A stretch of 64,000 nt of DNA. It comes from Billgrantia tianxiuensis (lineage in GTDB: Bacteria; Pseudomonadota; Gammaproteobacteria; Pseudomonadales; Halomonadaceae). A program made the translations under genes and the position numbers. How positions within the stretch are numbered: position 1 is the first letter of the stretch; every line of letters begins with the position of its first letter. Positions 9,326 to 62,811 of this stretch are shown in pieces. A model generated the notes under the pieces. It saw nothing but the letters and a program-made list of their open reading frames with translations. It was not told the DNA's origin and made no database searches. The DNA lies in contig NZ_CP035042.1 in assembly GCF_009834345.1 (NCBI RefSeq), positions 1-64,000 of the forward strand, in the 5' to 3' direction.

Positions 9326-10362
9326 TACGCATCTCCCTGTTCGGCGGTCTTGTCCTGGGCCAGCAGTTCCTGGCGCAGGGCTTCGGGGGCCAGCGGGAAG
9401 CCGGCTGCCTTGCGTGAGGCGTAGTAGGCATGGGCCACGTCACGGGCCATGGTGCGCACGCGCAGAATGAAGCGCTGACGTTCGGTCACCGAGATGGCGT
9501 GGCGCGCATCGAGCAGGTTGAAGGTGTGTGACGCCTTGAGCACCTGCTCGTAAGCCGGCAGTGGCAGGCCGGCTTCGAGCAGCTTGGCGCACTCACGCTC
9601 CTGATGATCGAAGGCGTCGAACAGGGTGGGCACGTCGGCGTGCTCGAAGTTGTACGCTGACTGTTCACGCTCGTTCTGCAGATAGACGTCGCCGTAGGTG
9701 ACCTTGGTGCCGTCCGGGGCGGTGGTCCATACCAGGTCGTAAACGCTGTCGACGTTCTGCAGGTACATGGCGATGCGTTCGAGACCGTAGGTGAGCTCGC
9801 CGGTGACCGGGTAACACTCCAGGCCGCCGGCCTGCTGGAAATAGGTGAACTGCGTCACCTCCATGCCGTTGAGCCACACCTCCCAGCCCAGGCCCCAGGC
9901 GCCCAGGGTCGGCGACTCCCAGTTGTCCTCGACGAAGCGAATGTCATGCACCAGCGGGTCGATGCCCAGCCGTACCAGCGAGCCGAGAAAGCGCTCCTGC
10001 AGGTCGGCCGGGGAGGGCTTCATGACGACCTGGAACTGATAGTAGTGCTGCAGACGGTTGGGGTTTTCGCCGTAGCGGCCATCGGTGGGGCGACGGGAGG
10101 GCTGCACGTAGGCGGCATTCCAGGTTTCCGGGCCGATGGAGCGCAGGAAAGTGGCTGGGTGAAAGGTGCCGGCCCCGACCTCCATGTCCAGAGGTTGGAG
10201 CACCACGCAGCCTTGTTCGGCCCAGTACTGTTGCAGGGCGAGTATCAGGCCCTGGAAAGTGGTCGCGTCTGGCGTCGACCCTGGAGCCGAGGTCGACGAA
10301 GGTGTCGAGAGCGTCTGCGACGGGTTTGACGAGGGAGTCATTGCGGAAGCACCGTTGGCCAT
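9325..10362 (-). CDS. glyQ: glycine--tRNA ligase alpha subunit
   Basis: Catalytic alpha subunit of tetrameric glycyl-tRNA synthetase. The conserved part begins [18 protein letters not shown] and continues with [19 protein letters not shown] and an [17 protein letters not shown] block. I place the start at the ATG at 10362 (MANGASAM...); a second ATG at 10341 is equally credible, while the upstream GTG at 10398 lies before a TATACT -10-like box and is unlikely. All starts leave a 20-35 residue Ser/Thr/Pro-rich extension before the conserved domain, which E. coli GlyQ lacks. It is divergent from hldD. Confidence 0.94.
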
Positions 10363-49674: not shown

Positions 49675-50582
49675 ATGGCGGCCTCGATCAGCGACTCCAT
49701 CCGCTGCGCTCCGGTCACGCGACCCTACCGGCGCTGGCTGGCGCTGTCGGCTGCGCTGCTGTTGCACCTGCTGCTGATCGGGATAGTGGCAAGCTGGCAG
49801 TTCACGCCGATGCCCGCGGAGCGCACCAGCCTGGACGTGGTGCTGGTAACCCGACCTGCCGAGGAGCCGGTCGAGGTGGAGGCCATTGCCGATACGGACC
49901 AGGAGGCCGCCGGCCAAGAAGAGACTGCGGAGGCTCCCGCCGAACAGCGATCGGTACCTATCGACGAGCTGCCGCACCTCGAGGCGCCGGATAGCAGTGC
50001 GGCGCCGGCCGCGTCGGCCGAACGGCCCGCTGACGAACCCGAGGTGGCTGAGGAGGGGCCTGCCGAAGCCGCCGAGGAGAGCGAAGCCCAGCCACAGGCG
50101 GAGCCGCAAAGCGCCCCCCGCCGGAGGAATCACCGGCGGAGCCGGCTGCCACAGCACCTTCGACATCGGGGCGCGACCTGCTGGCCCAGGCCACCAGCAG
50201 CATCCGTCAGCAGGAACTCGATGCCAACCTCGCGGGCGAAGCTGGCGACACACCGCGTTCCGCCGCCCAGCGGGCCGCCGAGGCACGCTATATCCATGAC
50301 TGGACCCGCCGCGTCGAGGATTACGGCAACCGGGTTCATCCCGCCCCGAGCCATCTGCATGGACAGCTGCGCATTCGCGTAGTGATCGGACGAGATGGTC
50401 AGCTTCGCCAGGCGGAGGTGGTACAATCCTCAGGACATACCGAACTCGATCAGGCGGCACTCGATACCGTGCATGGAGCCGGGCCCTACCGGCCCTTCGA
50501 CAGCGCCATGGGCGAGCTGGACAGCCTCTCCATCACCCGCGTCTGGCGGTTCGGGCAAGGTAATCATTTTGGCGTGCGCTAA
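49675..50582 (+). pseudogene. tonB: TonB energy transducer, frameshift in a poly-C tract
   Basis: TonB couples the inner-membrane proton gradient to outer-membrane receptors. The first part has an N-terminal signal-anchor (WLALSAALLLHLLLIGIVASW, about 23-43) and a long Pro/Glu/Ala-rich periplasmic linker. At a run of six C (50114-50119) the frame becomes nonsense. Adding one base restores PPPEESPAEPAATAPSTSGR, then WTRRVEDYGN, LRIRVVIGRDGQLRQAEVVQSSGH and the conserved ending SITRVWRFGQG at 50582. The restored protein would have about 302 residues. The homopolymer location suggests a base-calling error or a recent slippage mutation. Confidence 0.82.
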
Positions 50583-50635
50583 AGGGAACGACGCGTACCG
50601 TGTTTCCTCGGATCTCGCCGCCGCCCGGGAGTCCC

Positions 50636-51208
50636 ATGCAATCCGTGCAAAACCTAGGCTTGAGACATCATTTTCTGCTGGCGATGCCGCACCTGGAAGA
50701 TCCCAATTTTGCCGGCACCCTCAGCTATCTCTGCGACCACGATGAGAACGGCACCATGGGCGTGATCGTCAACCGGCCGCTGGAGATCACCCTGGAGGCG
50801 CTGTTCGAGCAGCTCGAACTCGACGGCGAGGAGAGCCCGCATCGTAACGCGCCGGTCTATTACGGCGGTCCGACCCACAAGGACCGCGGCTTCATCCTGC
50901 ATCGTGGCTCTAGCGAGCCGTGGGATTCCAGCATCCAGGTGGATGACGACATCGCGCTGACCACCTCCATGGATATCCTGCTGGCGCTTGCCGCCGGCAC
51001 GGGCCCGGAGGAGTTCCTGGTATGCCTGGGCTGTGCCGGCTGGGAGGCGGGTCAACTCGAGCAGGAGCTCAAGGACAACGCCTGGCTCACCGTCGAGGCG
51101 CAGGGCGATATTTTGTTCAAGGTCCCGGCGGAGCAGCGCCTGAGCGCCGCCGCCGGCATCCTTGGCGTCGATCTGAACTTGATGTCGCGGGAAGCGGGCC
51201 ATTCTTGA
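50636..51208 (+). CDS. yqgE: UPF0301 family protein YqgE (AlgH)
   Basis: Conserved 190-residue protein of the UPF0301 family, known as AlgH in Pseudomonas where it affects alginate and pigment production; its biochemical activity is unresolved. Key segments are HHFLLAMPHLEDPNFAGTLS near 11-30, GTMGVIVNRPLEI, VYYGGPTHKDRGFILH and VCLGCAGWEAGQLEQE. ATG 50636 follows GGGAG; the ORF is open to 50600. It overlaps yqgF (TGATG at 51206-51210). Confidence 0.9.
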   Translation: MQSVQNLGLRHHFLLAMPHLEDPNFAGTLSYLCDHDENGTMGVIVNRPLEITLEALFEQLELDGEESPHRNAPVYYGGPTHKDRGFILHRGSSEPWDSSIQVDDDIALTTSMDILLALAAGTGPEEFLVCLGCAGWEAGQLEQELKDNAWLTVEAQGDILFKVPAEQRLSAAAGILGVDLNLMSREAGHS

Positions 51209-51657
51209 TGTCCGATCATCGCCTGGTCCTGGCCTTCGACTTCGGCACCCGCCGCATCGGTGTGGCGGTGGGCAACGAGCTGCTCGCCAGTGCCCGCCAG
51301 CTCGAACCGCTGCCGGCCCGTGACGGCATCCCCGACTGGAACGTCGTCACGCGGCTGGTCGAGGAGTGGCAGCCGGACCTGTTCGTGGTGGGGCTGCCGC
51401 TCAACATGGACGGCAGCGAATCGGAGATGAGCGCCAGGGCGCGTAAGTTCGGCAAACGGCTCTACGGTCGCTATGGCAAGCCCTGCGAGATGGTCGACGA
51501 GCGCGGTTCCACCCGCGAGGCCAAGGCCATCGCCCGCGAGTCGGGGCTGCTGCGCAACCCCAACAAGAGCTACCGCGACGATGGCGTCGATGGCATCGCG
51601 GCGGTGCTGATCCTGGAGAGCTGGTTCGCTCGCAGGGAAGGCCTGCCGGGGCGTTGA
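51208..51657 (+). CDS. yqgF: Holliday junction resolvase-like protein YqgF (RuvX)
   Basis: RNase H-fold nuclease, called RuvX or YqgF, implicated in 16S rRNA 5' processing and in junction resolution. The 149-residue product has LAFDFGTRRIGVAVGN near 8-23 (first catalytic Asp), FVVGLPLNMDGSES (Glu/Asp region near 57-70), and a C-terminal YRDDGVDGIAAVLILESWF (third Asp near 131). The length and motifs are typical. The start overlaps the yqgE stop. Confidence 0.93.
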   Translation: MSDHRLVLAFDFGTRRIGVAVGNELLASARQLEPLPARDGIPDWNVVTRLVEEWQPDLFVVGLPLNMDGSESEMSARARKFGKRLYGRYGKPCEMVDERGSTREAKAIARESGLLRNPNKSYRDDGVDGIAAVLILESWFARREGLPGR

Positions 51658-51681
51658 CGACCTCAGCTCGGCCCTGTCGCC

Positions 51682-52905
51682 TCAACTCTTGCGTGGTCGT
51701 TCGCCACCATCCATCAGCGCGTGGAATTCGGCGACGGCCAGGGCAGTGAACGCCGGGTCGTTGATATGCCAGGGGCAGCGAATCAGCCGTCGCTCGGACG
51801 TTTGCCGCACCGTCGCCTTCAGGGCCGCGAACAGCGCCGCGTCGGCCGCCGGGTCATGGAAGGGCTGACCGGGGGCATCCAGCGCCGAGACCCCGCCTTC
51901 AGGCAGCAGGAAGCGCACCGGCCCCCGGCTGCGATTCAACTTCTCCCCGATCCAGCGCCCCATCCGTGCGTTCTCCTCGGCGGTCGTGCGCATCAGGGTG
52001 ATCTGAGGGTTGTGCTCATAGAGCCGGCGTTTTCGATAAGGCTCGGGCAGCGTCTCGGGACCGGCGAAGTTGACCATGTCGAGAGCGCCGCAGGAGCCTA
52101 CGTAGGGCAGCTCGGTATGCGCCAGAACGTCCAGCCGTGTGTCGCCGGCGCTGAAGATGCCGCCCATCAGCAGGTCGCACACCTCGGTGGTGGTGATATC
52201 GAGCAGTCCCTTCAGCATGCCGCTCGCGGCCAGTTTCTCCATCGAGCGCCCGCCGGTGCCGGTGGCATGGAAGACCAGGCAGTCATACTCCGAGGCCAGT
52301 GCATCGGTGAGACGGTTCACGCACTGTGTGGTGACGCCGAACATGCTCAAGCCGATGGCCGGCTTGTCATCGGCGGCCTCGGGCACCTGCCCCTCGAGCA
52401 TGCCGAGCAGTGCATGGGCCGCGTTGCCCAGCACCCGGCGCGATATTCTGTTGAGTCCCGCCACGTCGGTCACGGAGTAGATCATGGCAATGTCGCTGGC
52501 GCCGACATAAGGTGCCACGTTGCCCGAGGCGATCGTCGAGACCATCACCTTGGGCACGCCAATGTCCAGGTCGCGCATGGCCGGTGTGATCAGCGCGGTG
52601 CCGCCGGAGCCGCCAATACCGATGACGCCGGCCACGTCATCGCGCCCTGCCAGCAGCTGGCGCAATGCCTCGGCCATCTGTGTCACGGCGCGCCCCCGGT
52701 CGTTGACGAAGACCGCCTCGGTGCCCTGGGGGTGGCAGGCGGCCACCTGTCTGGCAGAAATGTCGGCATCGGGAGCAGGGTCGCCGCTGGTGCCTACGTC
52801 GACGATCAAGGTATCGACGTTTGCGTTCCGCAACAGGTCGCGCAGATAGCAGAGCTCCGCGGCCTTGGTATCACAAGTGCCGATGATGAAGGCTTTGTGT
52901 CCCAT
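51682..52905 (-). CDS. Tm-1-like ATP-binding domain protein (UPF0261)
   Basis: 407-residue protein of the UPF0261 family, the domain that forms the N-terminal half of tomato Tm-1, an inhibitor of tobamovirus replication. It begins [20 protein letters not shown] and has [21 protein letters not shown] near 97-117, [23 protein letters not shown] near 124 and [14 protein letters not shown] near 215, consistent with a two-subdomain nucleotide-binding fold. Native function unknown. It is the last gene of a leftward operon with an SRPBCC protein, a PEP-hydrolase-family TIM barrel and a Liv-type ABC transporter. AGGAGG precedes ATG 52905. Confidence 0.88.
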
Positions 52906-52960
52906 GGGGCCTCCTGGCCGGCATGCGTCGCGCCGGCCTGATTGTTATCGGTCTGGGGCG

Positions 52961-53398
52961 TCAGCCCTGGCAGCGTTCGACAGCCCCTTCGAAGGCCAGC
53001 CGGAAGGTATCCGAGACCCGCTGCACGACATCTTCTCGGTCGGCTTCCTCTACCTCGAACTCGGCCCACCACTCACCGAAGCATTGGCCGGTGGTCGTGA
53101 TGGGCTTGAGGCGCATCTCGGCCACGTAGTTCTGCACCGGCAGGGCCGGAGCCTCGAGAATGCGGTAGCAGCAGCGGTGTTCCCGATCCGAGAGGGTGAG
53201 CAACTCCTCGCGAATGAAGTTGCCTTCGTGGTCGTGAAAGAATCGCACGCAGCCGACCTGGTCGGCGGGCTTGCCCGCCTCGATCTCGCTCCTGGCGAAG
53301 AAGGGATGGTAGTCCGGCAAGCCGTTGAAATCGCGTAGCACGCTCCAGGCCTGCTCGAGCGTGATGGGCATGACGGCGCTGACGTAGACCCTGGTCAT
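52961..53398 (-). CDS. SRPBCC (START-like) family protein
   Basis: 145-residue protein with the helix-grip ligand-binding fold. It opens TRVYVSAVMPITLEQAWSVL and continues DFNGLPDYHPFF, the usual SRPBCC N-terminus. A central RCCYRILEAPALPVQNYVAEM strand pair and a long C-terminal helix (EDVVQRVSDTFRLAFEGAVERC) follow. Members bind hydrophobic or aromatic ligands and include cyclases and hydrolases; no activity can be named. It has a good ribosome site (GAGGAG) and lies 19 bp after the TIM-barrel gene, 55 bp before the Tm-1-like gene. Confidence 0.8.
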   Translation of the reverse strand: MTRVYVSAVMPITLEQAWSVLRDFNGLPDYHPFFARSEIEAGKPADQVGCVRFFHDHEGNFIREELLTLSDREHRCCYRILEAPALPVQNYVAEMRLKPITTTGQCFGEWWAEFEVEEADREDVVQRVSDTFRLAFEGAVERCQG

Positions 53399-53417
53399 GG
53401 TGGCGTCTCCTCGGTAG

Positions 53418-54245
53418 TCAGGCGATTGCCTTGAAGCGGCGGATTTGCTCGGTCAGTGCCACTTCGGTGGGCAGGCGCTCCATGCTGCTGGCGCCATAGA
53501 AGCCGTTGCAGTGCTCGCTTTTCTGCATGACGTAAGTGGCATCCTCGGGGGTGGCAATGGGGCCGCCGTGACACAGGACGAGTACCTCCCGACGCACGCG
53601 CCTGGCCGCCTCGGCCCACTCGTCGATCAGCCGCACCGACTCGTCGAGGCTCTTGGCGGATTCGGCGCCGATGGTGCCACCGACGGTAACGCCCATGTGC
53701 GCCACGATGATGTCGGCGCCGGCCTCGGTCATGGCTACGGCCTCGTCGGCCGAAAACACGTAGGGCGTGGTCAGCATGTCCATTTCATGAGCCTGGCGAA
53801 TCATGTCCACTTCGCTGCCGTAGGTGATCCCGGTCTCTTCCAGGCTGATGCGGAACGTGCCGTCGATCAGGCCCACGGTGGGGAAATTCTGCACTCCCGA
53901 GAAGCCCAGTTCCTTAAGCTCGCGCAGCAGCTTGGGCATGATCACGAAGGGATCGGTGCCGTTGACCCCGGCCAGTACCGGGGTGCGCTTGACCACGGGC
54001 AGTACCTCCAGCGCCATCTCCTGCACGATCTGATTGGCGTTGCCGTAGGCCAGCAGGCCGGCGGAAGAAGCGCGCCCGGCCATGCGATAACGCCCTGAGT
54101 TGTAGATCACGATCAGGTCGATGCCACCGGCTTCCTCGCACTTGGCCGAGATACCGGTACCGGCACCACCGCCAATGATCGGTTGGCCACGAGCGGCCAT
54201 GTCCTGGAAGCGGGCCATCAGATCCTTGCGGTTGAAAGGCGGCAT
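53418..54245 (-). CDS. phosphoenolpyruvate hydrolase-family TIM-barrel protein
   Basis: 275-residue TIM barrel of the PEP_hydrolase (formerly TIM-br_sig_trns) family, homologous to the C-terminal half of Tm-1. Characteristic segments are [33 protein letters not shown] N-terminal strands (about 22-50), [10 protein letters not shown] near 91, [16 protein letters not shown] near 116, [19 protein letters not shown] near 181 and [19 protein letters not shown] near 217. ATG 54245 has AAGGAG. It is the first non-transport gene after livM (43 bp). The family name is historical; the reaction here is unknown. Confidence 0.87.
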
Positions 54246-54288
54246 GTCGTTCTCCTTTGTCAGTATTGGGGTAAGCGGTGTCGATGGG

Positions 54289-55269
54289 TCATTGGTGATG
54301 GATGCGGGGTCGGGAGTCGACCTTGGCCGCGGGAATCGAGGAACGTCGTGAACGGAGCGCAAGGCTGAGTTGGCCCACCACGCCTTGGCGGAAGGTGAGT
54401 ACACAGGCCATGAATACCAGGCCGGTGATCACGGTGACCCAGGCGCCGAAAGGATCCAGATAGTGATTCAGCGTGGAGACGAGCGCGGCCCCCACGGCCG
54501 GACCGAATACCGTGCTCATGCCGCCTAGCAGCGTCATCAGGATGACGTCGCCCGAGGTGTGCCAGTGCACGTCGTAGAGGGCCGCCAACTGGAAGACGAT
54601 CGCCTTGAGCGAGCCGGCGATGCCCGACAGGCCGGCCGAGATGGTAAAGACCAGTACCTTGTAGCGAGCCACGGGGTAGCCCAGCGAGATGGCGCGGGGT
54701 TCATGCTCGCGGATGGCGCGCAACACGTTGCCGAAGGGAGAGTTGACGGTGCGCCACACCAGCCACAGGCCGGCGCCGACGATGCCCACCACGACGTAGT
54801 AGAGCGCCGAGTCGTTGCTTAGGTCGAGGCCCAGGAAACTGCCGCGGGGAATCCGCTGCAGGCCATCCTCGGCGCCGGTAAAGGGCGCTTGAAGGAAGAA
54901 GAAGTAGACCAGCTGCGACAGGGCCAGGGTGATCATGGCCAGGTAGATGCCACTACGGCGAATCGCCAGGGCCCCTACGACAGTACCCAGCAAGGCTGCC
55001 ACCAGGCCTCCGGCGAGGATCCCCAGCTCGGTGGGCACGCCGTAGGCCTTGACCAGTTGACCGGTAACGTAGGCGCCGGTGCCGAAGAAGGCGGCGTGAC
55101 CGAAGGAGAGGATCCCGGTATGGCCCAGCAGCAGATTGAAGGCGCAGGCGAAGAGCACGAAGCACAGCGTCTTCATCACGAAAATGGAATAGACCAACTG
55201 CGGGAAGAAGGGAACCGCCAGCAACGCCAGCAGACCCAGGACGATGAGAGCCGAGGATAATGGTCGCAT
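54289..55269 (-). CDS. livM: branched-chain-type ABC transporter permease LivM
   Basis: Inner-membrane permease with about nine hydrophobic segments, 326 residues. [29 protein letters not shown] near 42-70 and [24 protein letters not shown] near 196-218 (the EAA-like coupling loop) are typical of Liv[16 protein letters not shown] near 257 is also conserved. It begins 3 bp after livH stops. The transported compound is unknown; Liv-type systems carry amino acids, amides, urea and aromatic acids. Confidence 0.9.
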
Positions 55270-55272
55270 GGG

Positions 55273-56160
55273 TCAGCCCTCCTCGCGGCCGAACAGCCCG
55301 GCCGGACGCAGCAGCAGCACCAGCACCATGACCAGGAAGACGATGGTCGACGAGAACTCGGAATAGAACACTCGAGTCAGGCCTTCCACCACACCCAGCC
55401 CAAGACCGGTGACGATGGCTCCCATGATCGAGCCCAGACCGCCGATGACCACCACGGCGAAGATAATGATGACCAGGCTGGAGCCCATCGAGGGGTTGAC
55501 GTGGAAGATAGGCGCGGCAAGCACCCCGGCGAATGCGGCGAGGCCTACACCGACCCCGTAGGTCAGAGTGATCAGTCGCGGCACGTTGATACCGAAGGCC
55601 TGGGTCAGCTCCGAGCGCTCTGTCGCCGCGCGCAGGCTGGCACCCAGCGAGGTGCGTTCGATGACGAACCAGGTCAACAAACACAACAGTAGCGCCGAGA
55701 CGATCACGAAGCCGCGATAGAGCGGCAGGATCATGAAGCCCAGGTTGAGGGTGCCGCGCAGCAGCTCCGGGGTGGCGAAGGGTTGGCCGGAGGAGCCGAA
55801 GGAGACACGAAAGCCTCCCTCCAGCACCAGCACCAGGCTAAAGGTCAGCAGCAGCCCGTAGATCGGATCGAGCCCGTACAGCCGGCGCAGGAACAGGAAC
55901 TCGAACAGCATGCCGAACAGCGCCACGACCAGCGGGGCGATGGCCAGCGTCACCCAATAGTTGGCGTCCAGGTACTGGGCCAGCAGGAAGGCAGTAAAGG
56001 CGCCCAGCATGAAGAAGGCACCATGGGCGAAGTTGACGATCTTGAGTACGCCGAAAATGATCGCCAGCCCCAGGCTGAGCACCGCATAGAAGGAGCCGTT
56101 GACGATGCCCAGCATGAGTTGCCCCAGCAGGGCCTGAATGGGAATGCCGAATATATCCAT
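55273..56160 (-). CDS. livH: branched-chain-type ABC transporter permease LivH
   Basis: Inner-membrane permease partner of LivM, 295 residues, about eight hydrophobic segments. MLGIVNGSFYAVLSLGLAIIFGVLKIVNFAHGAF near the N-terminus, RAATERSELTQAFGINV near 155-171 and GGLGSIMGAIVTGLGLGVVEG near 235-255 are LivH signatures. ATG 56160 matches the family start; the open frame to 56358 lies over the livK end. It follows livK by 68 bp. Confidence 0.92.
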   Translation of the reverse strand: MDIFGIPIQALLGQLMLGIVNGSFYAVLSLGLAIIFGVLKIVNFAHGAFFMLGAFTAFLLAQYLDANYWVTLAIAPLVVALFGMLFEFLFLRRLYGLDPIYGLLLTFSLVLVLEGGFRVSFGSSGQPFATPELLRGTLNLGFMILPLYRGFVIVSALLLCLLTWFVIERTSLGASLRAATERSELTQAFGINVPRLITLTYGVGVGLAAFAGVLAAPIFHVNPSMGSSLVIIIFAVVVIGGLGSIMGAIVTGLGLGVVEGLTRVFYSEFSSTIVFLVMVLVLLLRPAGLFGREEG

Positions 56161-56228
56161 GTTCACTTGCTCATCAGGCTGAGAGGGAGGCGCGTGCCCG
56201 GCTATCGCCGGGCACGAACGACAGGGCA

Positions 56229-57458
56229 TCAGCTGCCGTTGAGCAGACGGCAGGTACTGGCTTCCAGCGGCTGGAAGGCGTCCTCGCCGGGAATGGTGGT
56301 CACCAGGCGCAGGAAGTCGTAGTCGTACTCCGACTCGTCGGGGGACTTCACTTCCCACAGGTACTGGTCGTGGACCATGCGGCCGTTGGGCCGGATGTAG
56401 CCACCCGAGGCGAAGAAGTCGTTGATCTCCAGCTCGCGCATCTTCTCGGATACCGCATCGGGGTCGTCGCTGCCGGCGGCCTCGATGGCGTTCAGGTAAT
56501 GCATGGTCGAGGAGTAGTTGCCGGCGTGGGCCATGTTGGGCATGCGTCCGGTACGTTCGTAGAAGCGCTGGGAAAACTCGCGGGTCTCGTCGTTGGCATC
56601 CCAGTAGAAGGCATTGGTCAGCATCAGGCCTTGGGCGGTCTCCAAGCCCAGGCTGACGATATCGTCATACCACAGCAACAATGCGGCCGGGCGCTGCTCG
56701 GGGGTCACGCCGAACTCGGCCAGGGCATTGATGGCGTTGATGGCATCGGCGCCGGTGGAGGCGATGCCAATAATCTCCGCACCGGAGGCCTGGGCCTGCA
56801 GGGCGTAGGAGGAGAAGTCGGTGGTGTCGAGGGGGTGGCGAGCGGCGCCGACGACCTGGCCCCCGGCTTCGCGCACTACGTCCGATACCTGCTCTTCGAG
56901 GCCGATGCCGAAGGCGAAATCCACGGTGAGGAAGAACCAGGTATCGCCGCCGTCCTCGACGATCGACTTGCCGGTGCCGTGGGCCAGCGAATGGGCGTCG
57001 TAGGTGTAGTGGGTCACGTAAGGCGAGCAGTAGTCGTTGGTGAGCCCGATGTTGGACGATGAGTTGACGATGGCGTGGCGCTTCTGCTCGTCGGCCACGG
57101 CTGCCACCGCCAGGGCGACCCCGGAGTTGGACAGGTCGTTGATCATGTCCACGCCTTCGTTGTTGTACCACTCGCGGGCACGGCTGGCCCCGGTGTCGGC
57201 GCGGTTACGGTGGTCACCGTGGATGACCTCGATGGGCACGCCATTGACCTCGCCGCCGAAATCCTCGACGGCCATCCGTACGGCTTCCACCGCCGCCTCT
57301 CCGGAAAGGTCGGTATAAATACCGGACATATCGGTGAGCACGCCGATTCGCACCACACCGTCACTGTAGCCTTCGCTGGCCATGGCGCTGGAGAGGCCCC
57401 CCAGGCTCAGGACGGCGGAAGACACCACCAGGGTTTTCAAGGAGTTCGTGGCTGGCAT
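56229..57458 (-). CDS. ABC transporter substrate-binding protein (LivK-like)
   Basis: Periplasmic type I binding protein, 409 residues, first gene of the leftward operon. A signal peptide (cleaved after SSAMA, about residue 27) precedes VVRIGVLTDMSGIYTDLSGEAAVEA, NDLSNSGVALAVAAVADEQ, VNSSSNIGLTNDYCSPYVTHYTYD and WFFLTVDFAFGIGLEEQV, the pattern of Liv/amide-binding proteins often found next to catabolic genes. A Cys pair (in DYCSP and the C-terminal STCRLL) may form a disulfide. AGGAG precedes ATG 57458. It is divergent from the AraC-type gene. Confidence 0.9.
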   Translation of the reverse strand: MPATNSLKTLVVSSAVLSLGGLSSAMASEGYSDGVVRIGVLTDMSGIYTDLSGEAAVEAVRMAVEDFGGEVNGVPIEVIHGDHRNRADTGASRAREWYNNEGVDMINDLSNSGVALAVAAVADEQKRHAIVNSSSNIGLTNDYCSPYVTHYTYDAHSLAHGTGKSIVEDGGDTWFFLTVDFAFGIGLEEQVSDVVREAGGQVVGAARHPLDTTDFSSYALQAQASGAEIIGIASTGADAINAINALAEFGVTPEQRPAALLLWYDDIVSLGLETAQGLMLTNAFYWDANDETREFSQRFYERTGRMPNMAHAGNYSSTMHYLNAIEAAGSDDPDAVSEKMRELEINDFFASGGYIRPNGRMVHDQYLWEVKSPDESEYDYDFLRLVTTIPGEDAFQPLEASTCRLLNGS

Positions 57459-57567
57459 TGTTTTTTCTCCTGTTCTCATGGGGAGTTATTGTTGTAATTT
57501 GCTCTGATTCGAACGGTTTGTTTTCTTGCTGCCTTTAATAGTTAGAGCCAACGTGGGCAAATGCGCC

Positions 57568-58413
57568 ATGGCTTCAGAGCACGAACAGCTATCCGAAACC
57601 CACATCGTCGGTGACGATACCCAGCAGTGGATCGTGCGCGCCGACGACTGCACCGCCCTCGAGCAGCGGCATATTTCTCATGTGGGCTTCGGCGATGCCG
57701 CGGTGCCCTATCGCATCGTGCGTACCCGCCTGAGTGGCGCCTACATCCACGGCTCGCTGGGCGGCGAGGGCCGCATGCTGCTCGATGGGCGGTGGTGCAC
57801 CATGCGCGGCGGTATGATGTCCTTCGCTCCCGCACATGGGCTGCACGCCTTCCACGCCGTGCCCGAAAAGCGCTGGCAGTATTGCTGGCTGCGCTACCTG
57901 CCCAGCGCACCTCGCTCGGTGGTGGGAACCATCGCACCGATCATGCAGCACTTCGACCCCGAGCCGATGAAGCACGCGATCCTGGGCCTCTACAGTGAGG
58001 TATTCCACGGTGAGGGGGATCCGGCCAGCTGCGTGATGTGGGTCGACACCATCGAGCGCTACATCTCGCGCTTCGCCGACCCTTGGCGGCGCGACGCGCG
58101 CATCGTGGCGGTCTTCGATGCGGTGATCCCGACCCTGGAGCGGCACTGGACCATCGAGGAGATGGCCGAGATCGCCCACGTCAGCACCGAGCACCTGCGA
58201 CGGATCAGCCGCAAGGTGTTCGGGCGTAGCCCCATGCAGCAGCTGACCCAGCTGCGTATGCAGCACGCTACCCACCTACTGGCGACCAGCGACCTGCCGA
58301 TCGAGGAGATCGCCGAGCGGGTGGGCTACAGCAGCCCCTTTGCCTTCTCCAAGACCTTCAAGCGCATGAACGGCGTCTCGCCCTCGCACTTTCGCCTGCA
58401 TTCCCGCGCTTGA
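57568..58413 (+). CDS. AraC-family transcriptional regulator
   Basis: 281-residue activator with an N-terminal cupin-like sensor (about 20-160) and a C-terminal AraC DNA-binding domain (about 185-281). The latter contains WTIEEMAEIAHVSTEHLRRISRKVFGRSP and IEEIAERVGYSSPFAFSKTFKRMNG, the two helix-turn-helix units. ATG 57568 is chosen over a TTG at 57526; no strong ribosome site is present. It lies between divergent livK and convergent livF, so it probably controls the whole locus. A decayed copy of its first codons lies before livG (60037). Confidence 0.88.
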   Translation: MASEHEQLSETHIVGDDTQQWIVRADDCTALEQRHISHVGFGDAAVPYRIVRTRLSGAYIHGSLGGEGRMLLDGRWCTMRGGMMSFAPAHGLHAFHAVPEKRWQYCWLRYLPSAPRSVVGTIAPIMQHFDPEPMKHAILGLYSEVFHGEGDPASCVMWVDTIERYISRFADPWRRDARIVAVFDAVIPTLERHWTIEEMAEIAHVSTEHLRRISRKVFGRSPMQQLTQLRMQHATHLLATSDLPIEEIAERVGYSSPFAFSKTFKRMNGVSPSHFRLHSRA

Positions 58414-58446
58414 GCTCGTCGCCCGTTGAGCCTGTCCGCTTGATTC

Positions 58447-59175
58447 CTAGACGCCCAGGCGTGCCAGTAGGGCATCGGCGTCCTGCTCGATGCCCTTGCG
58501 GTCGTAGCGCGCCGTCACCTGGCCGTGGTCGATGAGATAGAAATGGTCGGCCACGCTCATGGCGAAGTGCAGGTTCTGTTCCACCAGCAGGATGGTGTAG
58601 CCCTGCGCCTTGAGGAGGCGGATGGTGTCGCCGATGTGCTCGACGATACTGGGCGCCAGCCCTTCGGTAGGTTCATCGAGCAATAGCAACCTGGCTCCGG
58701 TGCGCAGGGTGCGTCCTATGGCGAGCATTTGTTGCTCTCCACCGGAAAGCTTGGTTCCGGGGCTGTGAAGTCTCTCGCGCAGGTGAGGAAACAGATCGAG
58801 CACCTGCTCGGTGCTCAGGCCGCTATCGTCGATCCGTGTCGGCAGCTCGAGGTGCTCCCTGACGTCGAGCGTGGCGTAGATGCCGCGATCCTCGGGGCAG
58901 AAGGCCACGCCGTGGCGGGCAATATGGAAGGGACGCAGGCCGATGGTTTCGACACCGGCAAGCCGGATGCTGCCCCGTCGCCGCGGGACGATGCCCATGA
59001 TCGATTTCAGCGTGGTGGACTTGCCGGCACCGTTGCGGCCCAGCAGGGTAATCACCTGCCCCGCCGGTACCTCCAGGTCGATACCGTGCAGCACGTGGCT
59101 TTCACCGTACCAGGCATGCAGGTCGCGGATCGCCAGCATGGGTTCGGGGGCGTGTTTCATGGCGGCTTCAGTCAT
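58447..59175 (-). CDS. livF: branched-chain-type ABC transporter ATP-binding protein LivF
   Basis: ATPase subunit, 242 residues. Walker A GRNGAGKST near 46-54, Q-loop region FCPEDRGIYATLDVREHL, ABC signature LSGGEQQMLAIGRTL near 143-157 and Walker B LLLLDEPTEGLAP near 163-175 are intact; FHIARHGVAFCPEDR is LivF-type. ATG 59175 overlaps the livG stop by 8 bp and has GGAGGGG upstream. It converges on the AraC gene with 33 bp between them. Together with LivG it powers the LivHM permease encoded on the other side of the AraC gene. Confidence 0.92.
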   Translation of the reverse strand: MTEAAMKHAPEPMLAIRDLHAWYGESHVLHGIDLEVPAGQVITLLGRNGAGKSTTLKSIMGIVPRRRGSIRLAGVETIGLRPFHIARHGVAFCPEDRGIYATLDVREHLELPTRIDDSGLSTEQVLDLFPHLRERLHSPGTKLSGGEQQMLAIGRTLRTGARLLLLDEPTEGLAPSIVEHIGDTIRLLKAQGYTILLVEQNLHFAMSVADHFYLIDHGQVTARYDRKGIEQDADALLARLGV

Positions 59176-59923
59176 GGCGGGCCCCTCCGATATAGGATTC
59201 GATCACGCGTGGGTCGCGCGACACGGTAGCGTAGTCACCCTCCGCCAGCACCTCGCCGCGAGCCAGCACGGTAATGCGGTCGCAGAGTTCGGCCACCACG
59301 CCCAGGTTATGCTCCACCATCAGCACCGAGCGTCCTTCGGCCACGCGATGGATCAGCTCGGCGGTGCGGCCCACGTCCTCCGTGCCCATGCCGGCCAACG
59401 GCTCGTCGAGCAGCATTACCTCGGGGTCGAGCGCCAGGGTGGTGGCGAGCTCCAGGGCTCGCTTGCGCCCATAGGGCAGCTCGGCGGCAGGAGTGTCGGC
59501 CCACTGCCCCAGGCCAACATCGACCAGCAGCGCCATGGCGCGTTCGCGATGTTGGTCGAGGCGGTGATGCGAAGCCCAGAAGTCGTAGGACTCGCCGCGC
59601 TGGCGTTGCAGCGCCAGCTTGACGTTCTCCAACGCACTGAGGTGGCCGAACACGGCGGATATCTGAAACGAGCGGACCATGCCCAGTCTGGCCACCTGAT
59701 CCGGCTTGAGGTGCGTGATGTCACGCCCCTTGTAGAAGATGCTGCCGGCGCTGGGTTCGAGGAACTTGGTCAGCAGGTTGAAACAAGTCGTCTTGCCCGC
59801 GCCGTTGGCACCGATCAAGGCATGGATGGTGCCGGGCTCGATTCGGATGGAGATATCGCTGACTGCCGTAAAGCCCCGGAAGTTCTTGGTGAGGCCCCGG
59901 GTCTCGATGATTGCCTCTGCCAT
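59168..59923 (-). CDS. livG: branched-chain-type ABC transporter ATP-binding protein LivG
   Basis: ATPase subunit, 251 residues. Walker A GANGAGKTT near 39-47, GMVRSFQISAVFGHLSALENV near 84-104, a signature region reading LPYGRKRALELATTLALDP near 145-163 (the LivG form, GRKRALE in place of the usual LSGGQ) and Walker B VMLLDEPLAGM near 164-174. The C-terminal GDYATVSRDPRVIESYIGG is the LivG tail. ATG 59923 has GGAG; the frame stays open to 60097 over unrelated sequence. It starts a livG-livF unit. Confidence 0.92.
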   Translation of the reverse strand: MAEAIIETRGLTKNFRGFTAVSDISIRIEPGTIHALIGANGAGKTTCFNLLTKFLEPSAGSIFYKGRDITHLKPDQVARLGMVRSFQISAVFGHLSALENVKLALQRQRGESYDFWASHHRLDQHRERAMALLVDVGLGQWADTPAAELPYGRKRALELATTLALDPEVMLLDEPLAGMGTEDVGRTAELIHRVAEGRSVLMVEHNLGVVAELCDRITVLARGEVLAEGDYATVSRDPRVIESYIGGARHD

Positions 59924-60036
59924 CGTGTACTCCGCCGTTATTATTGTCCGTTGGTCTGGTCTCGGGTGACGGAGCAGCCGGCATGGGCCGACGGCTTTCG
60001 TCGGCTTCAGTGTTGACACGGAAGATAGGCAGCGCC

Positions 60037-60147
60037 ATGGCTGCAGAGCACGTGTGGCTATCCGAAACGCACATGTATGGAAGAGGCCGACAGGCAAGAG
60101 TACCGTGCGTGGCCGAAAGGCAGGAAGGCCAGCCGGACCCTCGATGA
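60037..60147 (+). pseudogene. remnant of an AraC-type regulator 5' end
   Basis: The 49 bases from 60034 match the start of the AraC gene at 57565 in about four of five positions. The two begin MAAEHVWLSETHMYG and MASEHEQLSETHIVG. After that the similarity ends and the frame closes at 60147 (36 codons). The upstream segments also share a GTTATT-TTGT element (59937 and 57485). It looks like a residue of duplication of a divergent liv promoter plus regulator start; translation is unlikely to matter. Confidence 0.5.
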
Positions 60148-60159
60148 GGGTCTGGCTGG
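60129..60159 (-). terminator. hairpin downstream of the membrane protein gene
   Basis: A 14-bp stem with one G-U pair (60129-60142 with 60146-60159, three-base loop) lies 30 bp after the stop of the leftward gene at 60190. It is followed, on the minus strand, by a pyrimidine-rich CCTTCCTGCCTTTC instead of a clean T-run. It probably terminates that gene. Confidence 0.55.
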
Positions 60160-60189
60160 TGAAGCATCAAGCTGCGTGTGGCGGTGGGT

Positions 60190-60837
60190 TCAGGTGGTCA
60201 GCACCCGTTCCTCGTCGTACTGCGCGGCGATGTCGTTCACCGAGATGCAGGTGTACTTGAGCACGAAGAAGGCCAGCGTGGCGGGGCAGGTGAAGCTCTC
60301 CTCGAAGCGTTCCACCTGGCCACCGTAGCCGCGGGTGACGCTGGCGCGATAGGCGTTGCCTGCCTTGGTCAGCTTGACCGTGGCCTGGCGATCGGCCTCC
60401 TGCTTTTCCAGCACCAGTTCGCGCTGCCGGGTCAGCAGTTCGTCGAGCATCTTGCCGCCCTCGCGCTCCTCGGGCGTAGCCCACACCTCCTGGTCCCGCT
60501 TGCCGTACTGGAACAGCATGATGGCCGGGAGTACGGAGAAGATGCCCCCGGTCAGCAGCCAGGTCAGCTCGGCGCCGGGAGGATGCAGCGCAAACACGGC
60601 AAACAGCTGCACCACGAAGGCGGCGGCGAGGATGCCCGCCAACGGACGCCACATGCGCGGGTTCATCACCGGCTTGCCCAGGGTATGGCCCCACAGGCCG
60701 GCCGCCACCAGTGCACCGAGTGCCAGGGTCGCCACGCCCCAGATCGGGCCGCCGCCCACTAGCAGGGCAATGGCGCCGATCGCCACCAGCACGCTGTAGA
60801 ACACCGCCAGCAATATGTACGCTCGTTCCAGGGTCAT
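60190..60837 (-). CDS. uncharacterised inner-membrane protein with a cytosolic or periplasmic C-terminal domain
   Basis: 215 residues. Four hydrophobic segments lie near residues 6-28, 31-50, 67-84 and 92-110. A charged linker (YGKRDQEVWATPEEREGGKMLDELLTRQRELVLEKQEAD) and a soluble C-terminal domain (about 150-215; RASVTRGYGGQVERFEESFTCP... ALKYTCISV-like) follow. I do not recognise the family. AAGGAG precedes ATG 60837. It follows pyrB by 182 bp, a gap in which I see nothing convincing, and ends at a hairpin. Confidence 0.7.
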   Translation of the reverse strand: MTLERAYILLAVFYSVLVAIGAIALLVGGGPIWGVATLALGALVAAGLWGHTLGKPVMNPRMWRPLAGILAAAFVVQLFAVFALHPPGAELTWLLTGGIFSVLPAIMLFQYGKRDQEVWATPEEREGGKMLDELLTRQRELVLEKQEADRQATVKLTKAGNAYRASVTRGYGGQVERFEESFTCPATLAFFVLKYTCISVNDIAAQYDEERVLTT

Positions 60838-61019
60838 GCGTCACATCTCCTTTATCCGGTTGCCTTGGATGGCAACACCGTCGTCATTCGACTTGTTATT
60901 CGAGATTGCAGCTCATTCGAGCCGTGTCGTCATGGGGTGGCGGCCGGTGACCGCCGGTCAGCTTCGCACACACACTTCTTCCGCCCTCAGCATAGCGATG
61001 CCGAGCGTTGGCTGCACCG

Positions 61020-62048
61020 TTACAGTGAGGGATCGTCGACTCCCACACGCTCGGGCACGAACCAGCGCACCGGGCGTAGGTCCTTCTCGATCAGCTCCTC
61101 CACCTGCAGCAGGGTGGCGAAGATCGCCATGCGTACCGGAATGCCGTTATCGGTCTGGCGGAAGATCGCCAGGCGCGGGTCGCCGTTGAGATCCACGTCG
61201 AGGTCGTTGGCATCCGGGCGGCTGTCGCGGGGCAGCGGGTGCATGACGATGGTGTCGCGGCCGCAGCGCTTGTCCATGAAGGCGCGATCGACGGTGAAGT
61301 CACGCGACAGGCTGAAGCCCTCGCTCATCTCGGCGGTGAAGCGCTCCTTCTGGATGCGGGTGGTGTAGACCACGTCCACGTCGGCATAGTCGTCGGCCAG
61401 GCTGGTGCGCTGTTCGACGCGGTGGCCGCGGGAGGCGACCAGGTCGATGAGGTAATCGGGCATCTCCAGCCCCGGCGGCGCCACCAGCGTGATGCGCATG
61501 GGATCGTAGAGCGACAGCAGCTTGATCAGCGAGTGCACGGTACGACCGTACTTGAGGTCGCCGGTGAGCAGTACGTGGGCGCCGGCGAGCTGCTTGCCCA
61601 GCCGGGTGAATTCCTTGTCGATGGTATAGAAGTCGAGCAGCGCCTGGCTGGGGTGTTCACCGGGGCCGTCGCCGCCGTTGATCACCGGCACGTGAGTGGC
61701 GGCGGCAAACTCCGCCACCGAGCCCTGGTCGGGGTGGCGCATGACGATGGCGTCGCAGTAGCCGCTCATTACCCGGCTGGTGTCGTAGAGCGACTCACCC
61801 TTGGCCATGGAGGAGAAGGTGAAGCCGGTGGTGTCGCACACGCTGCCGCCCAGGCGACAGAAGGCGGCGTGGAAGCTGACCCGGGTGCGGGTGCTGGCCT
61901 CGAAGAACAGGTTGCCGAGCACGGCGCCCTCCAGCACCCGGGTGACCTGGCGGCGTTGGGCGATGGGCTCCATGCGGGCGGCGATGCGCATCAGGTGGTC
62001 GACGCTTTCGCGGGTCAGGGAATCGACGGAGAGCAGATGGCGACTCAT
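61020..62048 (-). CDS. pyrB: aspartate carbamoyltransferase
   Basis: Transfers the carbamoyl group from carbamoyl phosphate to aspartate, the first committed step of pyrimidine synthesis. The 342-residue product has the carbamoyl-phosphate loop FFEASTRTRVSFHAAF near 48-63, HPDQGSVAEFA near 105, GDGPGEHPSQALLDFYTI near 126-143 and the aspartate loop RIQKERF near 232 and MHPLPR near 270. It lacks neighbouring pyrI or pyrC genes, so it may work alone or with a distant dihydroorotase-like partner. It lies alone, 85 bp downstream of the iclR-type gene. Confidence 0.92.
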   Translation of the reverse strand: MSRHLLSVDSLTRESVDHLMRIAARMEPIAQRRQVTRVLEGAVLGNLFFEASTRTRVSFHAAFCRLGGSVCDTTGFTFSSMAKGESLYDTSRVMSGYCDAIVMRHPDQGSVAEFAAATHVPVINGGDGPGEHPSQALLDFYTIDKEFTRLGKQLAGAHVLLTGDLKYGRTVHSLIKLLSLYDPMRITLVAPPGLEMPDYLIDLVASRGHRVEQRTSLADDYADVDVVYTTRIQKERFTAEMSEGFSLSRDFTVDRAFMDKRCGRDTIVMHPLPRDSRPDANDLDVDLNGDPRLAIFRQTDNGIPVRMAIFATLLQVEELIEKDLRPVRWFVPERVGVDDPSL

Positions 62049-62133
62049 CGAGGGCCTCGAAGATGGCAGCGAAGGATGGCCCGTAGTGTAACGCCACCGG
62101 GGCCGCGCTTCACAGAGCGCGACGGCATGACGC

Positions 62134-62811
62134 TCAACGGCCGAGCAGTTCGGCCAGCTCGTGTGCGTAAGCCTTCACTTCACGTATCGCCCGCTCAGTG
62201 TCGAGGTCGTCCATCGCCACCACGCCCACGCAGGCCTCGATGCCGGGACGAAACTGCGGCGTGGCCACGGGGCTGGCCACTCCCACCGCGCCGCGCTGCA
62301 GCTGGCCGCGGGTCAGGCTGTAGCCGTCGGCACGGGCCTGGCGCACCGCCTCGCTGTCGTCTGCGCGCGGAGGGCGCCCGGCGAGAATGGCGATGCCCGC
62401 GGCGCCGAGCGTCAGCGGGTGGCGGCTGCCGACCCGATAGCCGACCCGCAGCAGGCCCTCCTCCGGTTCCGCCACCAGCAGCACCACGCACTCTTCTCCC
62501 TGGGCCACCGACACGAAGGCGGTGGCCCGGGTCGCCTTGGCCAGCGCCTGTAGCAGCGGCTGGGCTACGGCGCGCAACTGTGGCTCGAAGCGCGAGGCCA
62601 GCAGCGAGATGCCGGCACCCAGGCGCAGCGCGCCCTCGCTGGTACGTGCCACCAGGCCGTGCTGTTCCAGGGTGGTGACGATGCGATAGGCGATGGCGCG
62701 GTGCACATCCAGCCGCTCGGCGAGTTCGGCGACGCTGATGCCCTCGGCGTGTTCGGCGACGATCTCCAGCGCGTGCAGGCCGCGATCCAGGGTTTGCAGG
62801 GTAGTGGCCAT
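62134..62811 (-). CDS. IclR-family transcriptional regulator
   Basis: 225 residues: N-terminal winged helix (about 5-65; LQTLDRGLHALEIVAEHAEG and VAELAERLDVHRAIAYRIVTTLEQHGLV) and a C-terminal IclR effector domain (about 75-225; LRVGYRVGSRHPLTLGAAGIAILAG). ATG 62811 is chosen as the family start. It is divergent from the P450 gene with a 201-bp intergenic region that holds a palindrome of IclR type (62906-62921), so it probably controls the P450 gene in response to an aromatic or terpene-like substrate. Confidence 0.88.
   Translation of the reverse strand: MATTLQTLDRGLHALEIVAEHAEGISVAELAERLDVHRAIAYRIVTTLEQHGLVARTSEGALRLGAGISLLASRFEPQLRAVAQPLLQALAKATRATAFVSVAQGEECVVLLVAEPEEGLLRVGYRVGSRHPLTLGAAGIAILAGRPPRADDSEAVRQARADGYSLTRGQLQRGAVGVASPVATPQFRPGIEACVGVVAMDDLDTERAIREVKAYAHELAELLGR

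Follow-up and report, generated by a model that had tools for sequence, protein, structure and literature searches.

The closest described relatives of the system treated here are plant Tm-1, an inhibitor of tobamovirus RNA replication, and the microbial gene pair that corresponds to its two halves. In the available excerpts of PMC5028733 (all papers cited here by PMC number were available in excerpt), Tm-1L is reported from nearly all sequenced land plants, and the two domain families, UPF0261 (COG5441) and PEP_hydrolase or TBST (COG5564), are said to be encoded in bacteria, archaea and fungi by genes that co-evolve and in most cases are not fused (159 pairs, Mirrortree r 0.886). Two transfers followed by a fusion are proposed there as the origin of plant Tm-1L. 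For the fungal pair, a STRING score of 0.988 is given (PMC8963296). Here we describe a locus of Billgrantia tianxiuensis in which the same two families are encoded by separate genes within a nine-gene cassette, together with an SRPBCC protein, an AraC-family regulator and the five subunits of an ATP-binding cassette (ABC) importer of the HAAT (Liv-type) family. The cassette lies in a window of 64,000 nucleotides, positions 1 to 64,000 of contig NZ_CP035042.1, which is the whole stretch of DNA that was analysed. The nine genes very likely constitute a catabolic cassette, at the core of which UPF0261 and the PEP_hydrolase barrel probably form one functional unit.

The pair in the window is the same as the published one, and the halves as a pair and their co-evolution were known before (PMC5028733, as excerpted). 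Whereas those excerpts report co-evolution and phylogenetic profiles, the importer, the SRPBCC or cupin gene, the LivF fusion and the exchange of the barrel for a class II aldolase come from the present analysis; the importer-linked cassette, the fusion and the exchange appear to be new. Titles and abstracts of the openly licensed literature searched contained neither a LivF-UPF0261 fusion nor a reaction for either family. The literature searched also made neither of two further links, that of a barrel-sigma-54 regulator family to UPF0261-barrel loci and that of UPF0261 to a class II aldolase at loci without a barrel.

As in plant Tm-1 and Tm-1L, both domain families are present at the window locus, and the UPF0261 protein aligns to Tm-1 crystal chains over residues 4-393 (PDB 3wry, 330.7 bits), while the barrel matches PDB 2p10 with 407.2 bits. 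Unlike Tm-1, which is one fused chain, the window has two genes, of which the barrel comes first; they are separated by an SRPBCC gene and accompanied by an importer. Among named organisms, Halomonas and Billgrantia have the barrels closest to the one in the window. The earlier note on this DNA, made from the sequence alone, had assigned the two proteins to the UPF0261 and PEP_hydrolase families, and Pfam profiles with curated cut-offs, which all nine cassette proteins passed, agree (Table 1). It had also taken the fungal homologues of Tm-1 for fusions; this holds for two Aspergillus genes, the only ones that match plant Tm-1 over its full length, whereas the remaining homologues, in fungi and in prokaryotes, carry one domain each, according to the same excerpts (PMC5028733).

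Evidence for a unit comes first from the pairing of the two genes across genomes. We took 20 loci outside the window with a barrel above 420 bits from a phylum sample of 299 genomes, and added the best 80 loci from named genome contigs; the latter were ranked by closeness to the query and are thus biased to near relatives, and the two sets may share species. In 97 of these 100 loci (20/20 in the phylum sample, 77/80 in the named set), UPF0261 and the barrel are no more than two genes apart, which argues that the linkage is not due to chance. Counted by genus label, the figure is 61 of 64, and by phylum it is 69/72 in Pseudomonadota, 7/7 in Actinomycetota and 1/1 in Planctomycetota. The exceptions are Pragia (L099) and Bauldia (L113), where no UPF0261 gene was found in the stretch examined, and Rhodovibrio (L101), where it is ~9 kb away. 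The count leaves out ten weaker or fragmentary PF09370 matches, two of which adjoin UPF0261 as a divergent pair. When the two genes are adjacent on the same strand, the median gap is 13 nucleotides; it is below 60 nucleotides in 71 of 78 such pairs, and the genes overlap in 10. Presence of the two families in whole genomes follows the same pattern. PF09370 occurs in 20 of the 299 phylum genomes and PF06792 in 28 (27 above the cut-off), with all 20 barrel genomes also having UPF0261, and in the window's family both halves are found in the same 10 of 121 genomes. The co-localisation search therefore upholds the earlier proposal of a link between the two Tm-1 halves. That they act together is favoured by the same pairing, but UPF0261 is also found without the barrel, so the pairing is not constant.

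The barrel family is widespread, with at least 8000 relatives, and Haloferax volcanii, an archaeal model, has both UPF0261 and the barrel. No DNA-level match was obtained in E. coli genomes with one Yersinia-type barrel gene as the query. The window order, AraC-LivK-LivH-LivM-barrel-SRPBCC-UPF0261, recurs exactly in four loci (L052, L067, L069, L094), and with transporter genes rearranged or missing in four more (L055, L058, L064, L131). In the UPF0261 tree these window-order loci form two separate groups, L052 and L094 being placed next to the window, and in another tree the two groups adjoin with a support of only 70. At L094 and in genome G366, two barrel genes flank SRPBCC-UPF0261, and the first copy is apparently split or short.

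The importer is more variable than the enzyme pair. With a binding protein, two permeases and two ATPases (all by Pfam), the window has all five subunit types of a HAAT importer, and its LivK-type protein matches PDB 3i09 (416 bits) and 3n0w (286.1 bits). The label Liv-type used in the earlier note thus stands as a family name but not as a reference to leucine: unlike known HAAT importers, the window subunits do not reach the cut-off of any of the NCBIfam Liv and Urt models listed (LivF, for example, scores 159 against 441, LivG 172.8 against 362 and UrtB 194 against 250.3), and 15 relatives have LivF fused to UPF0261. Across the 100 loci, counting up to eight genes from the barrel, Liv-type permeases are found in 36 and CUT1 permeases in 27, with single loci having TRAP (L078) or MFS (L235) transporters. 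The enterobacterial loci in the sample had neither a Liv-type nor a CUT1 permease within that distance, other transporter types not being counted. The idea of a dedicated Liv-type importer as the general partner of the pair is not supported; it is one of several transport solutions, and because the importer type varies among loci, the core of the cassette is the enzyme pair.

The third gene of the operon is variable too. An SRPBCC gene is present in the operon at 45 of the 100 loci, and its relatives cluster around the barrel, making up 58 of the 594 genes that lie up to three genes away, 1 of 566 at a distance of four to six, and 0 of 599 further out. The SRPBCC partner of the earlier note is retained for the loci that have it; a cupin is found at others. 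Cupin genes lie within eight genes of the barrel at 22 of the 100 loci, mostly rhizobial. In addition, a plasmid of the haloarchaeon Haloterrigena has the order barrel-cupin-UPF0261, with the cupin in the slot that SRPBCC occupies in the window.

A second line of evidence is that the nine genes are present or absent as one block. The cassette is flanked by ruvX-like and pyrB-like genes, which we take from their sequence to be ruvX and pyrB. In 13 genomes of the same genus, the spacing between these two genes is 9149-9369 nucleotides in three, 735-856 nucleotides in nine and 3293 nucleotides in one. In the close relative G406 (contig stretch L237), in which the pyrB product shares 99 percent identity with that of the window, the sequence aligns to window positions 50500-51661 and then to 60186-62692, with 11 nucleotides between. 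The missing stretch, 51662-60185, comprises the nine genes and no further called gene. In two genomes of another genus in the family, the pair is at a different place than ruvX-pyrB. Taken together, the junction, the spacing and the placement in the other genus indicate that the nine genes come and go together, either by gain here or by loss in the relatives. Apart from this block, a Vibrio alginolyticus plasmid typed as conjugative (L232) carries TetR, UPF0261, barrel and DUF1097 genes, a location which suggests that the pair is mobile.

UPF0261 also exists in settings that have no barrel. In one subfamily without a nearby barrel, UPF0261 is followed by a class II aldolase gene in 12 of 12 loci (L140, L141, L146 and L149-L157, the last nine of which were picked for a low UPF0261 score; Pfam and NCBIfam were run on single members). 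PF09370 was not found anywhere in the genomes of L140, L141 and L146. CUT1 genes are immediately upstream of UPF0261-aldolase in 9 of the 12, and most of these loci also encode GntR, a lactonase-like MBL protein, HAD and a second aldolase, often with a divergent FGGY kinase. The aldolase scored 96.9 bits against NF043034, below the cut-off of 250. On a Thermus plasmid, UPF0261 and a class II aldolase are accompanied by a Tct transporter. A further UPF0261 group occurs with TctABC genes (7 of 9 such loci) and with genes for aldehyde dehydrogenase, class III aminotransferase and an APH-type kinase. Seven loci (L136, L139, L144, L159, L161, L162, L167) have UPF0261 with a class III aminotransferase, several of them also with an APH-type kinase or HAD protein, a set that we would liken to hydroxylysine-type phospholyase pathways. 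Two loci have a divergent barrel-UPF0261 pair with a CUT2 (ribose-type) transporter and, by eye, an SDR. Sugar-type neighbours in some loci are Gfo/Idh/MocA and xylose-isomerase-like proteins, CUT2-type transporters, and FGGY kinases and the lactonase-like MBL protein (both with NCBIfam matches below cut-off). Given the aldolase, Tct and CUT2 contexts, UPF0261 looks like a general catabolic enzyme, often partnered by a C-C lyase family, and many of its neighbours lean towards sugar-acid or polyol chemistry.

A preferred mechanism can be proposed from these contexts, and we lean slightly towards it as a whole: a horizontally mobile, inducible catabolic cassette. The AraC regulator would control the five-subunit HAAT importer, which would take in a small molecule, possibly of the sugar-acid, polyol or a similar type. 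UPF0261 would then activate the compound at the expense of ATP, probably through phosphorylation, the SRPBCC protein (elsewhere the cupin) may handle an intermediate, and the barrel would cleave or rearrange the activated product, presumably at a C-C bond; the direction of the pathway is likewise a prediction. Use of ATP by UPF0261 is suggested by its NCBI product name, 'Tm-1-like ATP-binding domain', and by the structures of Tm-1, which binds ATP. Lyase action of the barrel is suggested by the exchange of partners and by what we take to be its membership in the PEP/pyruvate TIM-barrel class. The specific order, ATP-dependent activation followed by a lyase, is a tentative proposal from sequence that we consider less probable than the cassette as a whole. 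OtnK/OtnC operons, in which a DUF1537 four-carbon acid sugar kinase is paired with a class II aldolase, presumably share only the logic of a transporter, an ATP-using two-domain protein and a class II aldolase or decarboxylase.

Several observations weigh against this mechanism. Unlike OtnK, UPF0261 has no detectable profile homology to DUF1537: hhalign gave probabilities of 0.2 percent for DUF1537 and 1.8 percent for PFK, against 5.2 for an SDR control, in alignments that contained stray neighbouring domains. Kinase homology was therefore rejected, nothing being above the controls, which leaves gene context as the basis for ATP activation. An FGGY kinase is also encoded at the CUT1/aldolase loci, where the kinase role would thus not have to fall to UPF0261, and in the Tct-linked loci UPF0261 sits with an aldehyde dehydrogenase and not with a lyase. 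The transporters vary among loci. The barrel has a weak Pfam match to nitronate monooxygenase, a flavin mononucleotide (FMN) enzyme, in 19 of 20 members (25.7 bits for the window protein, against a cut-off of 28). For G406, loss of the block is possible instead of gain in the window's lineage. Independently of these points, the name PEP_hydrolase is an annotation, and the literature searched contained no assay in which the family hydrolyses phosphoenolpyruvate or a similar compound.

Experimental data from Sinorhizobium meliloti bear on the same question. From its length of 398 amino acids, its position on pSymA and the M24 peptidase gene SMa1329 (excerpts of PMC8175422; open reading frames of L229), though not from its sequence, we infer that S. 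meliloti SMa1334 is a UPF0261 gene. Its disruption, which may have had polar effects on SMa1332, -1331 and -1329, left nodules (0/11, 0/13) and free-living cells without a GUS signal, and the mutants nodulated normally, in the excerpts of PMC3462710, where the sentence on shoot length prints SMa1344. A symbiosis role was rejected on this ground, and the normal phenotype and missing signal neither support nor exclude catabolism. A Brucella UPF0261 gene was screened by signature-tagged mutagenesis (PMC2364660, as excerpted).

Natural fusions bear on how the two halves might work together. UPF0261-barrel fusions are found in plants and in some bacteria (P0121, P0126, P0133, P0144), the bacterial ones with junctions that are clean by eye, assembly errors being possible; the layout of Tm-1 may thus extend beyond eukaryotes. 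P0138, from the eukprot source, has a linker between UPF0261 and the barrel. We rejected triple ABC-UPF0261-PEP fusions (P0131, P0137, P0150) as likely frame-shift artefacts, with stretches resembling shifted frames between the domains by eye, as well as P0122-P0124, P0127, P0128, P0130, P0134, P0135, P0145-P0147 and P0171, which have the same appearance; P0129 is doubtful. FastTree trees of both halves included 22 proteins taken as eukaryotic, several of them from metagenomes or transcripts, in a sample biased to the window's relatives. In both, 21 of the 22 lie outside the sampled bacterial pairs, with P0133/P0144 deeper, while P0138 is placed differently in the two. The trees fit one linked history of the halves, and with so biased a sample the two-transfer model in the excerpts of PMC5028733 is compatible too.

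These fusions, the tight coupling of the two genes and the co-evolution reported in the excerpts of PMC5028733 are what would be expected if the halves formed one hetero-oligomeric enzyme, with UPF0261 as the ATP-driven subunit by which the barrel is powered or gated, for example in an ATP-dependent lyase, carboxylase or dehydratase. We regard this as unlikely though worth serious attention: UPF0261 also occurs without the barrel or with a class II aldolase, and is thus more than a barrel subunit.

The second type of fusion joins UPF0261 to the importer. In 15 proteins of 711-792 amino acids (for example, L037:10449-12656(-)), a LivF-type ATPase is N-terminal to UPF0261 in one chain. All 15 have ABC_tran and both UPF0261 domains, and the Walker A, ABC-signature and UPF0261 residues are invariant. 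They form one clade, which includes two unfused members (L042, L115). One other clustered ABC ATPase within 8.5 kb was found in 10 of 12 Liv operons with the fusion, as against two or more in 18 of 19 without it, and so the fusion seems to replace the stand-alone LivF in most such operons. In one alphaproteobacterial family, 18 of 25 UPF0261 matches of at least 168 bits lie in open frames of 725-770 codons, judged by frame length. The fusion operons also have flotillin and in some cases a molybdenum hydroxylase or an SRPBCC-dehydrogenase fusion; the flotillin gene is downstream of the barrel gene in most of them (L040:6660-9563(-) and relatives). It is conceivable, but improbable in our estimate, that import is vectorial, with UPF0261 docking on the LivF ATPase, using ATP to modify the solute at the channel exit and handing it to the TIM-barrel lyase. 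If so, an ABC importer would be the basis of a trapping system of the phosphotransferase-system type, and the ancestor of plant Tm-1 would be an importer-coupled enzyme pair.

The nitronate monooxygenase match raises a further alternative, in which the barrel is an FMN redox enzyme and UPF0261 its ATP-dependent activase, with a nitro or hydrophobic compound being oxidised. Weak PDB matches to FMN TIM barrels (3bo9, E=0.041) and the SRPBCC, molybdenum hydroxylase, nitroreductase and quinol-monooxygenase neighbours at some loci point the same way, but the window protein's match is below the cut-off and other loci have sugar-type neighbours, and we consider this quite improbable, a shade more so than vectorial import.

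A barrel is also found as part of a regulator. The protein L132:10766-12520(-), of 584 amino acids, combines PEP_hydrolase, a sigma-54 activator and a Fis-type helix-turn-helix (Pfam), an architecture already mentioned in the excerpts of PMC5167734. Relatives of this barrel-sigma-54 activator (~400 bits to one of them; Pfam was run on one) occur in 11 of 101 barrel stretches. The use of an enzyme-like barrel as a sensor next to such operons points to binding of the pathway's compound by the barrel. A short divergent PEP_hydrolase-like protein of 209 amino acids (41 bits, profile 75-180) is encoded at L120:3366-3995(-) and at 10 further loci, where its gene mostly adjoins that of the sigma-54 regulator. 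A pure sensing or signalling unit, in which barrel and UPF0261 would respond to a metabolite by adjusting transport and not by degrading it, would accord with these fusions to a sigma-54 activator and a transporter ATPase and with the older name TIM-barrel signal transduction (used in the excerpts of PMC5028733), but it is very improbable, as the stand-alone barrel has 109 invariant columns across 20 diverse members, typical of an active enzyme, and many of the linked genes encode enzymes.

The features of the cassette are collected in Table 1. The leftward run livK-livH-livM-PEP_hydrolase-SRPBCC-UPF0261 of the earlier note, from 57458 down to 51682, is borne out by Pfam and the coordinates, and the gaps of 19 to 96 nucleotides within it (likely starts) are compatible with a single transcription unit. 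The AraC and livG-livF genes are beside it as described, except that livG-livF lie beyond the divergent AraC gene and outside the run; position 59923, where that note had ended the locus, is the likely LivG start.

Table 1. Features of the cassette in window coordinates, with likely starts and, where different, the longest open reading frame (ORF)
Feature	Position	Strand	Evidence and remarks
UPF0261 protein (Tm-1 N-terminal half), 407 aa	51682..52905	-	PF06792 216.9 bits and PF23189 (UPF0261_C) 299.2 bits, curated cut-off 27 each
SRPBCC / Polyketide_cyc2 protein, 145 aa	52961..53398	-	PF10604 69.3 bits, cut-off 27.4
PEP_hydrolase-family TIM barrel (Tm-1 C-terminal half), 275 aa	53418..54245 (longest ORF 53418-54404)	-	PF09370 424.1 bits, profile 3-267 of 267, cut-off 33.8; longest ORF 423.2 bits, likely start 54245
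LivM-type permease	54289..55176 (longest ORF to 55269)	-	PF02653 (BPD_transp_2) 114.2 bits
LivH-type permease	55273..56160 (longest ORF to 56358)	-	PF02653 (BPD_transp_2) 123.6 bits
LivK-type solute-binding protein	56229..57458 (longest ORF to 57479)	-	PF13458 (Peripla_BP_6) 336.6 bits
Intergenic region between divergent livK and araC starts	57459..57567		Likely shared promoter region, a function predicted from position; coordinates from predicted starts
AraC-family regulator	57568..58413 (longest ORF from 57526)	+	HTH_18 84.6 bits, AraC_binding 33.3 bits
LivF-type ATPase	58447..59175	-	ABC_tran 92.8 bits
LivG-type ATPase	59168..59923 (longest ORF to 60097)	-	ABC_tran 90.7 bits, BCA_ABC_TP_C 32.2 bits
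Whole nine-gene cassette	51662..60185		Missing as one block in close relative G406

The cassette bounds a minimal gene set, and its LivK-type protein gives direct access to the ligand. The ligand, in turn, would open a way to the ancestral reaction of the crop-resistance protein Tm-1, in simple microbes.

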